Part shown: positions 50,626-54,459 of the stretch, piece by piece
Layout: each line of letters begins with the position of its first letter
Numbering within the stretch: the stretch's first letter is position 1
Assembly: GCA_021325655.1 (NCBI GenBank)
Contig: JAJPGT010000099.1
Location: 62,001-126,000, forward strand
DNA: 64,000 bases
Direction: 5' to 3'
From: Pseudomonadota bacterium
Lineage (GTDB): Bacteria > Chloroflexota > UBA6077 > JAJPGT01
The notes under the pieces: generated by a model
The model's database searches: none
Seen by the model: the letters and a program-made list of their open reading frames with translations, nothing else
What the model was told of the DNA's origin: nothing
Translations under genes and position numbers: made by a program

Positions 50626-52989
50626 CTACGGCACATGCGGCAGGGCGCGCAGCACCATCTCGAGCTGGCAGCGGGGGGCGCTGGAAGGGGTATTGGGATA
50701 ACAGGAGCCACTGCCATCGCCCCGCGGGCCGTAGGAGGTCAGGCCGCGCCCGTTGTCGTAATAGATGGCGCTGCGCGTCAGCGGGCTCTCGGCCGACCAG
50801 GCGCCGACACCGGCGACGATCGGAAAGCTGAGGACGAAACGAAGCTGGTGGAGCTCCTGGTTCAGCCGGGCCTGCTCGTCGCCGGCGGCATACAGCCCGG
50901 AGACCGAACGGGTGGTGCCGAGCTCTTCGACCAGCACCGGCAGCCGCCGGCCGCTGGGGCAATCGCTGTTGACGATGTTCTGCAGATCCCAGTCGATCGG
51001 CATATCCCCCCCGCGCCCTGGCCCAACCCAGTCATAGGTGTGCAGGGTGTAGGCGTCGAACGGCAGCTCGCAGTAGAGCGCGCGCGCCACCGGTGACACC
51101 TCCTGCCAGGGGTCCAGGTGGTTCGCGCCCATGGTCCCGGGGAGCATCGGGGTGAGCGGATCGATCGCCCGCATCTCCGCGCTCATCTGGCGCAGAAAGT
51201 CGAGGATCAGCGGCGGGTTCGTGGGGGTGTGCAGCTCGTTACCCACCTCCCAGGCGGCGATGACGTCCGTCGCCCCACTGTCACGCACGGTGCGCATCAG
51301 ATCCGTGGCAAAGCCGAGGTACGCCCCGCGCCAGTCCTGGGTGTAGAAGGGCATCAGGAGCTGGTAGAAGCCGTCCACCAGACCGAAGTTGCCCTGGGGC
51401 TCTGCCGGGACCGGCTGGTAGTTGCTCACCAGCGCGACGATGAGGCGCAGGCCGGCTGCCCGCAGGTCCGGGGCGATCTGGACGATCCGGGCACCCACCT
51501 GCTTGCCGTCCCAGGGCTTGTACGTAATCGGATCGGTGGGGAAGACGCGGATCACGCCTGCGTTCATCCACTGCGCGTAGCGAATGTCCTCTCGGATGTC
51601 GTTCACATCGTCGTGGAACAGCATTGCCGGCATATTGAGCAGCAGGAACTTGCCGCCCAGCACGTCGCGCCCCTGGAAGTGGATCGCGTCCGGCGAGGTC
51701 CCCAGCGCGGAGGTGGCGCTGGCCTGCCCCCCCCGCGTGATCGGCTGGATGCGCTCGACCGCCACCGGCACGTCGCTGACAATCGCAGCCCCGCTGGGCC
51801 GATCCGAGCCGCCGTCGGCGAGCGGCAGCGTCGCGATGGCGTGCGCCGCGATGGTGGCCGGGAAGCTCGGGGCATCTCCATGCTCGTCGAGCGGCCGGAT
51901 CTGGAGGTGCGCCACGCTGGCGTTGGGATTCTCCACCCGGAGCAGCGCCGGCTGCGCTCCTCCCGCCACGCCCTCGGCAAACAGCCAGGTCCAGCCAAGG
52001 TCTGGCGCGGCCGGGTGCACGATCTCGGTTCCGTCGTCCTGCTGCCGGCTCTGCTCCACGACCACGCCGGCGCTCGCCTGGAGCTGGACAGCGTAGTCGC
52101 CGGGCTGCGCGGGCAATGGGACATCCAGCGGCGCGCCCGGCTTCGCCGTCAGATCCAGCCGCTGCACCGGCCCCCAGGAGGCCAGAAGGTCAACCGTCAG
52201 GTGAACCGGGTCGCTGGCGGGGTTCAGGACGGTGAGATGGGCCGGGCCGGCACCCACCGCGGCCGCCGGGGCGTACCAGAGCTTGGACGCCTTGGTCGCT
52301 CCGGGCAGGGCGTCGCTCCCAGCCTCGCTGGTTGCGCTGACCCGCTCCACTACCACCGGCTGCGTTGCATCCACCCGGGCGCTGGTGGCCGTGCCACTGC
52401 CCGCCCCGGCTGGATCGAGGCTCACCCGGGCGCGCGGAGCGACCGTGGCCGACTGCTTCGCCTGCGTTCCATCCGCCAGGGTGTACGCCACCGAGAGCGT
52501 CGCCACGCTGTCGCCCGGGTTGAACACCACCAGGCGGCCTGTCCCCACCGCGCTCTGCAGGCGGGCAAACCACCAGGTCTGCGCCGGCGCGGTGGCCGCG
52601 GCGGACGAGGCGGTAGCGTTGTGGAAGATCGAGCGCTCGACCACGAGCGGCTGGTCGGCTTCGACCAGCACTGCGAATGCCGCTCGGGGGACGAGCGGGT
52701 TGGCGTATACGCCGCGCCGCGTCCCGGGCGCCAGCGCCAGCGGGGTGACGACGGGCGCTCCGCCATCCGGATAGAACGTCAGCCGGGCCGTCGCCGGGGC
52801 GCGTCCCGGGTTGGCCAGCAGCAGCCAGGTCTCGTCGGGAGCAGCGGAAGAGCCATAGGCGAGCGCCAGCTTCCAGGGCAGCGGGAGGTCAGGAGCCGGG
52901 CTGGCTGAGGTGGCAGGTGCGGCGCTCACCAGAAGCGCGCACAGCATCAGCAGCGCGAGGAGGCGCTTGAGCAGATGGGGGCGTGGCAT
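50626..52989 (-). CDS. Secreted clan GH-A glycoside hydrolase-like protein with four N-terminal beta repeats
   Basis: Signal peptide MPRPHLLKRLLALLMLCALLVSAAPATSA; four ~85-aa repeats mostly ending PVVVER-like; TIM-barrel motifs AAWEVGNELHTP and PVLVEELGTTRS. Confidence 0.75.
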   Translation of the reverse strand: MPRPHLLKRLLALLMLCALLVSAAPATSASPAPDLPLPWKLALAYGSSAAPDETWLLLANPGRAPATARLTFYPDGGAPVVTPLALAPGTRRGVYANPLVPRAAFAVLVEADQPLVVERSIFHNATASSAAATAPAQTWWFARLQSAVGTGRLVVFNPGDSVATLSVAYTLADGTQAKQSATVAPRARVSLDPAGAGSGTATSARVDATQPVVVERVSATSEAGSDALPGATKASKLWYAPAAAVGAGPAHLTVLNPASDPVHLTVDLLASWGPVQRLDLTAKPGAPLDVPLPAQPGDYAVQLQASAGVVVEQSRQQDDGTEIVHPAAPDLGWTWLFAEGVAGGAQPALLRVENPNASVAHLQIRPLDEHGDAPSFPATIAAHAIATLPLADGGSDRPSGAAIVSDVPVAVERIQPITRGGQASATSALGTSPDAIHFQGRDVLGGKFLLLNMPAMLFHDDVNDIREDIRYAQWMNAGVIRVFPTDPITYKPWDGKQVGARIVQIAPDLRAAGLRLIVALVSNYQPVPAEPQGNFGLVDGFYQLLMPFYTQDWRGAYLGFATDLMRTVRDSGATDVIAAWEVGNELHTPTNPPLILDFLRQMSAEMRAIDPLTPMLPGTMGANHLDPWQEVSPVARALYCELPFDAYTLHTYDWVGPGRGGDMPIDWDLQNIVNSDCPSGRRLPVLVEELGTTRSVSGLYAAGDEQARLNQELHQLRFVLSFPIVAGVGAWSAESPLTRSAIYYDNGRGLTSYGPRGDGSGSCYPNTPSSAPRCQLEMVLRALPHVP

Positions 52990-53028
52990 GAGGTCCAGGG
53001 GCACTCTATCGGGGCCGCCGGCCGGCTG

Positions 53029-53961
53029 TCAAACCCGGCGCGCGGACCGCGCTCCGCTGGTCGCCAGCAGCGACACCGCCGCGGTCACCGCCAGGATCAG
53101 TCCGATCAGTCCCAGCGAAAGCCAGACCGGGACGCTGACCAGGTCCGCGGTGAGCATCTTCGCCCCGGCCAGCACCAGGATGGCCCCGAGCCCAACCTTC
53201 AGATAGACGAAACGGTTCATGAGCCCGGCCAGCAGGAAGTACATCGCCTGCAGCCCCAGGATAGCGAAGGCGTTGGAGGTGAAGACGAGGAACGGGTCGC
53301 TCGTCACCGCGAAGACGGCGGGGATGGAATCGACCGCGAACACGATGTCCGTTGTCCCGATCACCACCAGCACCGCGAGCAGCGGCGTGGCCACGCGCCG
53401 GCCGGCCTCGGCCACCAGCAGCCGGGCGCCGTGGTATTTCGTGCTGACCGGCAGCACCCGGCGCAGCAGCCCCAAAGCCGGGTTGTGCGCCGGATCAACC
53501 TCGCCGCCCCGCTCGAGCGCCATCCTGATACCGGTGATGACCAGGAAGGCGCCGAACAGATAGATGACCCAGTGGAACCGCTCCAGCAGCGCGGCTCCGA
53601 CCAGGATGAAGATCGCCCGGAAGACGATCGCTCCCAGCACACCCCAGAACAGGGCCCGGTGCTGGAGCGCGGCCGGGACGGCAAAGGCCTGGAAGATCAG
53701 CGCGAAGACGAAGATATTGTCAACCGACAGGCTCTTCTCGATCAGGTAGCCGGCCAGGTACGCGCCCGCGGCGTCGGTCCCCTGCCAGAGCCAGACGAGC
53801 CCGCCGAACAGCAGTCCGAGCACCACCCAGAGGACGCTCCAGGCCGCGGCTTCGCGCAGCGACACCGCGTGCGCCTCCGCGTGGAACACCAACAGGTCCA
53901 GCGCCAGGACAACCAGGAGACCGCCAACGAACGCGGCCCACACCCACCACTCCACAGCCAT
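53029..53961 (-). CDS. TerC family integral membrane protein (Alx-like)
   Basis: MAVEWWVWAAFVGGLLVVLALDLLVFHAEAHAVSLREAAAWSVLWV...GYLIEKSLSVDNIFVFALIFQAFAVP...IGTTDIVFAVDSIPAVFAVTSDPFLVFTSNAFAILGLQAMYFLLAG. Confidence 0.96.
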   Translation of the reverse strand: MAVEWWVWAAFVGGLLVVLALDLLVFHAEAHAVSLREAAAWSVLWVVLGLLFGGLVWLWQGTDAAGAYLAGYLIEKSLSVDNIFVFALIFQAFAVPAALQHRALFWGVLGAIVFRAIFILVGAALLERFHWVIYLFGAFLVITGIRMALERGGEVDPAHNPALGLLRRVLPVSTKYHGARLLVAEAGRRVATPLLAVLVVIGTTDIVFAVDSIPAVFAVTSDPFLVFTSNAFAILGLQAMYFLLAGLMNRFVYLKVGLGAILVLAGAKMLTADLVSVPVWLSLGLIGLILAVTAAVSLLATSGARSARRV

Positions 53962-53998
53962 GAAAAAACTCCGGCTCAATGCCCGTTGGGCGATCTTG

Positions 53999-54088
53999 CC
54001 GAAGGTCTCTCCTGACCGGGAGCGGTGGCGCCGCCGGGCCTCACGGCCGTGCTGACGACGACGCCGTCTACGGGATACTCCCCCTCGG
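53999..54088 (-). ncRNA. yybP-ykoY (manganese) riboswitch
   Basis: Minus strand CCGAGGGGGAGUAUCCCGUAGACGGCGUCGUCGUCAGCACGGCCGUGAGGCCCGGCGGCGCCACCGCUCCCGGUCAGGAGAGACCUUCGG; P1 CCGAGGG/CCUUCGG closes it; GGGGAGUA and GAGACCUU hallmarks; 37 nt before terC ATG. Confidence 0.87.
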
Positions 54089-54195
54089 ACCGTTGTCAGT
54101 ATACCAGGCCCAGTGGCCGGAATGTCCGCCGCTCTGCCCATCGGCCGTTTGTCGCCCCGCCGGGCACGCCTGCCGTATACTGAGGGCGCGTGGCT

Positions 54196-54459
54196 GTGCT
54201 AGACGGGGAGCTAGCGGTGCCCTGAACCCGCAACCCGCTATAGCGGGGTTGAAATCCTTCCCGAGGCCAGGCGCTGTTTGGTCAGGTCTGCGTTAAGTGG
54301 CGTCGATGGTCTGGTCCTGCGCGGCGGTGGTCTGCGAACCCCGCCAGGTCTGGAAGGAAGCAACGGTAAGCAGTCTCCACCGGGTGCCGCAGGGGAGCCG
54401 GGCCGGAGCAGGCTGGCGCAGGGCCGCGAGGAACGCCTAGGTCGACGGAAGGTGCACGG
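54196..54459 (+). ncRNA. ffs: Signal recognition particle RNA, large (Bacillus-type, with Alu domain)
   Basis: GTGCTAGACGGGGAGCTAGCGGTGCCCTG...AACCCGCTATAGCGGGGTTGAA...CCGCCAGGTCTGGAAGGAAGCAACGGTAAGCAG...GGTGCCGCAGGG...GACGGAAGGTGCACGG; matches the B. subtilis scRNA layout from memory; ends pair GTGC/GCAC. Confidence 0.93.

Follow-up and report, generated by a model that had tools for sequence, protein, structure and literature searches.

How is the terC/alx gene of a poorly studied Chloroflexota lineage regulated, and does its leader encode a metal-sensing RNA? In the 64,000-nt stretch of DNA that was analyzed (the window), a 90-nt element occupies positions 54088-53999 of the minus strand, and the ATG of terC/alx at 53961 lies 37 nt further downstream. 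The original prediction described this element as closed by CCGAGGG/CCUUCGG, and these strands indeed pair at 54088-54082 and 54005-53999, through six Watson-Crick pairs and one G-U pair. Judged by sequence comparison, the element is a genuine, ordinary yybP-ykoY (Mn2+) family aptamer in a compact form that lacks helix P2. The comparison supports the aptamer identity, the covariation of the helices, the nucleotides of the metal site, the target gene, and a leader-specific pairing of the switch strand. Taken as a whole, the reading that a P2-less yybP-ykoY Mn2+ riboswitch controls terC/alx as an ON switch is very probably correct; the family identity appears secure on these comparative data, and we infer Mn2+ as the ligand, the ON direction, and the translational level. 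Such an element would give terC/alx of this lineage a regulator and a probable role in Mn efflux.

Architecture of the predicted aptamer

The features of the locus are listed in Table 1. Both conserved words of yybP-ykoY aptamers lie where they had been placed, GGGGAGUA at 54083-54076 and GAGACC at 54009-54004. They contribute to internal loop L1, in which GGAGUA faces GAGA and the cross-helix adenosine A54079 is the equivalent of A10, which makes an A-minor contact in the solved structures (PMC6754395). In those structures, A10 of L1 docks on P3.1, and the Mn site comprises G9, U39, C40, A41, U44, and C45, with N7 of A41 binding Mn2+ (PMC9190785, PMC6754395). Loop L3 of the element has GUCA at 54056-54053, including U-C-A at 54055-54053, and GUCA recurs in nearly all relatives. 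Hence L1 (GGGGAGUA/GAGA) and L3 (GUCA) carry the nucleotides that form the Mn site in the solved structures. P1.2 takes the forms UCC/GGA, UCUC/GAGA, UCUU/AAGA, and CCCC/GGGG in relatives.

Table 1. Features of the terC/alx leader and gene (SD, Shine-Dalgarno sequence)
Feature	Position	Strand	Basis or remark
P1.1 5' strand CCGAGGG	54082..54088	-	Direct reading; helix covaries in 25 P2-less members
GGGGAGUA, two P1.1 G residues plus L1 5' side	54076..54083	-	Invariant in alignments A1-A4
P1.2 5' strand UCC	54073..54075	-	Pairs with 54012-54010; covaries
7-nt linker CGUAGAC at the P2 position	54066..54072	-	Direct reading
P3.1 5' strand GGCGUCGUC	54057..54065	-	Nine pairs with 54035-54027; covaries
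L3 GUCAGCAC	54049..54056	-	A54053 is the counterpart of Mn-coordinating A41/A48 (PMC9190785, PMC6754395)
P3.2 hairpin GGCC-GUGA-GGCC	54037..54048	-	Fold and covariation
P3.1 3' strand GGCGGCGCC	54027..54035	-	Fold and covariation
P4 hairpin ACCG-CUCC-CGGU	54015..54026	-	Fold and covariation
P1.2 3' strand GGA (54012-54010), then GAGACC (54009-54004; L1 3' side and P1.1 top)	54004..54012	-	GAGACC invariant in A1-A3
Switch strand CCUUCGGC	53998..54005	-	Predicted alternative partners: 54088-54082 (Mn-bound) or 53975-53969 (SD hairpin)
Anti-switch strand GCCGGAG, holding SD GGAG (53972-53969)	53969..53975	-	Paired in predicted minimum-energy fold
GCCCAACGGGC, apical part of SD-sequestering hairpin	53981..53991	-	Direct reading and fold
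U6 run, SD-to-AUG spacer and possible terminator tail	53963..53968	-	Direct reading
terC/alx gene, 310 aa, ATG start at 53961	53029..53961	-	PF03741, 174.1 bits; TIGR03718, 400.6 bits
Probable extended -10 promoter element TGGTATACT; TATACT at 54103-54098	54098..54106	-	Direct reading

The canonical P2 helix and four-way junction were not found in the element, where a 7-nt linker alone stands in their place; with no P2 hairpin at 54066-54072, the junction would be three-way. Linkers of about 2 to 7 nt likewise replace P2 in same-order relatives, distant Chloroflexota, Vibrio terC, and E. coli alx, as read from their sequences, and a review assigns a three-way junction to the Streptococcus mgtA aptamer, also a yybP-ykoY member (PMC9495176). 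This topology thus has precedents. Helix P2 is not universal in the family: judging from its sequence, the alx leader of E. coli, a validated member, has none.

Covariance models and covariation

The fold of the bare 90-mer was unremarkable relative to shuffles (z, -0.58); thus, the evidence for the element is comparative, not thermodynamic. Relatives were gathered in two ways, through the TerC protein and through a gene-independent pattern searched in 400 genomes of the phylum. The pattern gave 66 forward matches versus 25 in the reversed control, which indicates that a minority of its matches are due to chance. Two covariance models were built, both with the window sequence excluded. R1 was trained on nine P2-less elements, of which four came from same-order genomes; R2 was trained on 27 P2-containing elements, namely E. 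coli mntP and 26 elements from 25 Chloroflexota genomes other than that of the window. On the window, R1 scored 71.1 bits (E, 2.3e-13 genome-wide). R2 gave 52.2 bits, with E at 7.5e-11 for a genome of 5.2 Mb, in which its second-best match reached 13.7 bits. These E-values are rough owing to the short calibration. As the R2 training set was picked by core words, agreement in those words is partly built in, and the extra weight of R2 comes from the helices and their order. The class assignment made originally is thus borne out by two models that never saw the sequence. Moreover, R1 and R2 recover E. coli alx (37.9 and 22.3 bits, respectively) and the Vibrio terC leaders.

Among the 25 P2-less members, compensatory changes were present in 26 of 28 pairs, which none of 500 shuffles equaled, and 92% of cells were paired, versus 30 to 50% with the partner slid; both results come from an alignment that was fitted to the structure. 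Covariation was found for each of helices P1.1, P1.2, P3.1, P3.2, and P4. In one relative (G022b), for instance, an A-U pair takes the place of G-C at the upper end of P1.1, and an identical element is present in another genome of the same phylum (G378). Elsewhere in the phylum, elements that were found without regard to genes precede TerC/Alx, P-type ATPase, CaCA-like, YjbE-like, and MneA/GDT1-like genes, as read from their translations, which is the set expected of an Mn2+ regulon.

Relation to known Mn2+ leaders

With the yybP-ykoY aptamers (RF00080; crystal structures of L. lactis yoaB and X. oryzae yebN), the element shares GGGGAGUA with GAGA/AAGA in L1, GUCA in L3, helices P1.1, P1.2, P3.1, P3.2, and P4, the use of P1.1 as the switch helix, and an Mn exporter-type gene downstream. 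It differs from them in its missing P2 and three-way rather than four-way junction, and in that RF00080 is silent on it. E. coli alx resembles it in the TerC/Alx family gene, in the absence of P2 (a 2-nt linker joins P1.2 and P3 in alx), and in being missed by RF00080, whereas alx has a long P4, a longer leader, other downstream structures, and a reported pH response (PMC9603457). The Vibrio terC leaders likewise lack P2, precede a TerC/Alx gene, and are recovered by both models, but their helices are AT-rich, P1.2 is GUCA/UGAC, and the expression platform is different. In V. parahaemolyticus, Mn induction has been reported for a terC gene whose leader is a predicted yybP-ykoY element (PMC13274385). 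E. coli mntP, a reported translational Mn ON switch (PMC9603457), shares the core; however, it has P2 and regulates an MntP-family exporter.

Rfam model RF00080 overlooks P2-less leaders

The check originally proposed, a search with RF00080, was negative for the element: the model matched nothing in the window, found nothing in the 300-nt region even with E allowed up to 10, and left the element unreported in a genome-wide search, so that the 45-bit gathering threshold was not reached. RF00080 searches of relatives were negative as well. This outcome cannot refute the element, since the model also fails on E. coli alx. In the controls, E. coli alx (L068) went unreported and E. coli mntP (L069) scored 41.6 bits, below the threshold, although both leaders are reported to be Mn2+ responsive (PMC9603457). 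The RF00080 null is therefore uninformative, and its threshold is not a biological class boundary. The printed RF00080 alignment holds pairs for P2, P3, and P4 only, in a model of 177 positions. Altogether, the negative result reflects the model itself and does not count against the element. Across the 400 Chloroflexota genomes, RF00080 (Rfam 15) exceeded its cutoff in one, in contrast to the simple pattern, which yielded tens of convincing gene-linked elements, and the P2-less model, which yielded 21 strong matches in 18 genomes. Rfam-based counts of the Mn2+ riboswitch are thus probably underestimates, above all for the P2-less form.

The terC/alx gene, its start, and its promoter

The downstream gene matches TIGR03718 over residues 4-301 with 400.6 bits against a cutoff of 246.4, which places it in the TerC/Alx family, and an Mn homeostasis gene therefore follows the element. 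Together with the PF03741 match of 174.1 bits, this confirms the TerC-family target that had been named. The proposed start at ATG 53961 also holds, as the N terminus aligns with those of relatives and GGAG (53972-53969) and ATG (53961-53959) are in place. The window start was set by this N-terminal match; the automatic choice was wrong for the window, G020, L005, and others. Translation through the aptamer from 54141 was rejected, with the aptamer and a -10-like box both lying downstream of that start codon. Transcription is expected to start near 54090-54094, just 5' of P1.1, and TATACT, TATGCT, TAGACT, and TAGGCT boxes lie at a similar distance 5' of the aptamer in most P2-less relatives, as judged by eye. 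A transcript positioned by this TA box would begin just before P1.1, which would exclude translation from 54141. A sigma-70 consensus scan returned no promoter.

Two neighbors were also noted. Divergent from the terC leader is a bacterial large SRP RNA (54194-54459, plus strand; 181.5 bits); a TATACT box of its own lies within the short upstream region common to both. On the terC strand, 24 nt past the gene, lies a 792-aa open reading frame (50626-53004, minus strand) that may be cotranscribed and for which DUF5719 is the sole Pfam match.

Expression platform

It had been proposed that the GCCCAACGGGC hairpin and the T6 run constitute the expression platform. Both are present, but the hairpin is merely the apical part of a larger one: the functional pairing would be that of CUUCGGC (54004-53998) with GCCGGAG (53975-53969), with T6 serving as a spacer and, if it acts as a terminator tail at all, doing so only in second place. 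In the known aptamers, Mn2+ stabilizes P1.1 and thereby blocks a competing downstream hairpin (PMC6754395). Here, at high Mn2+ the metal would join L1 and L3 and stabilize P1.1 (CCGAGGG/CCUUCGG), leaving the SD GGAG free so that the exporter could be translated; at low Mn2+, CUUCGGC of the P1.1 3' strand would pair with GCCGGAG and hide the ribosome-binding site. Mn2+-dependent release of the SD would be the most likely means of terC/alx control, and, given the aptamer, regulation probably takes place at the translational level.

The predicted minimum-energy fold of the leader contains the SD hairpin, and the SD is virtually always paired in it; when the aptamer is imposed on the fold, the SD is partly freed (modeled unpaired probability, 0.12-0.61). 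Within the same transcript, enforcing the aptamer costs about 12 kcal/mol relative to the SD hairpin (-49.0 versus -61.0); accordingly, switching would need metal binding together with cotranscriptional kinetics. SD-containing equivalents of the partner strand occur in relatives. In a comparison of 21 P2-less leaders, the switch strand prefers its own leader over permuted leaders (0/5,000), a figure that is no strict probability given that the sequences are related; in most of these leaders the partner carries the SD a few nucleotides 5' of the start. For the window alone, its own switch-strand duplex was not stronger than cross pairings (a fraction of 0.47 of which were as strong). Since it is indistinguishable from them, the platform rests on the group.

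Alternative explanations

With the same aptamer, Mn2+ might instead prevent an intrinsic terminator formed by the GCCGGAG hairpin and U6, either alone or along with SD masking, as in L. lactis yoaB. The U6 run lies directly 3' of the 7-bp GC-rich base of this hairpin, and three to five U residues follow the equivalent SD strand in G168, G025, G300, G027, and G281. On the other hand, the run sits between the SD and AUG, and G022a, G019, G378b, and G378c keep the SD pairing although they lack the run; moreover, a terminator scan reported none, with a loop limit that excludes this hairpin. We regard a terminator as doubtful but credible. Transcriptional and translational control are not mutually exclusive, and it appears rather unlikely, though conceivable, that one hairpin in this Chloroflexota group acts as both SD mask and intrinsic terminator, with its U tract inside the SD-to-AUG spacer. 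If so, a compact P2-less Mn2+ riboswitch would govern transcription and translation via one switch strand.

Two further readings concern the sensor itself. The leader could be structured and share the ancestry of the family yet have acquired a changed ligand, such as Ca2+ or another metal, given that the P2-less form alters the junction and that the Streptococcus mgtA aptamer, according to a review (PMC9495176), can form with either Ca2+ or Mn2+. However, the element keeps the adenosine that coordinates Mn and the entire L1/L3 core, P2-less E. coli alx responds to Mn2+ (PMC9603457), and the regulated gene belongs to the TerC/Alx family; a changed ligand is highly improbable. Alternatively, a GC-rich leader might contain short words that look conserved and so resemble an aptamer by chance, with no riboswitch present. 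The missing RF00080 match, a bare 90-mer fold no better than shuffles, and the chance yield of the loose pattern (25 reversed versus 66 forward in 400 genomes) would be in keeping with this, but genome-wide E-values of 1e-10 to 1e-13 from models lacking the window sequence, the helix covariation, and the conservation before terC in relatives reduce its probability to a negligible level, and these comparative data rule chance resemblance out.

Other Mn-type leaders

Same-order genomes (L127, L129, L130, L131, and L134) carry a distinct leader that matches RF00080, with AUCAACA in L3 (GUCAACA in L131) and CAGCCAGACC; the genes downstream look MneA/GDT1-like by reading. A search of the window's own genome for a GDT1/MneA-type second Mn exporter gene found none. 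In L077, two leaders of the Mn2+ aptamer type lie about 1.2 kb apart, each followed by a TerC-like open reading frame.
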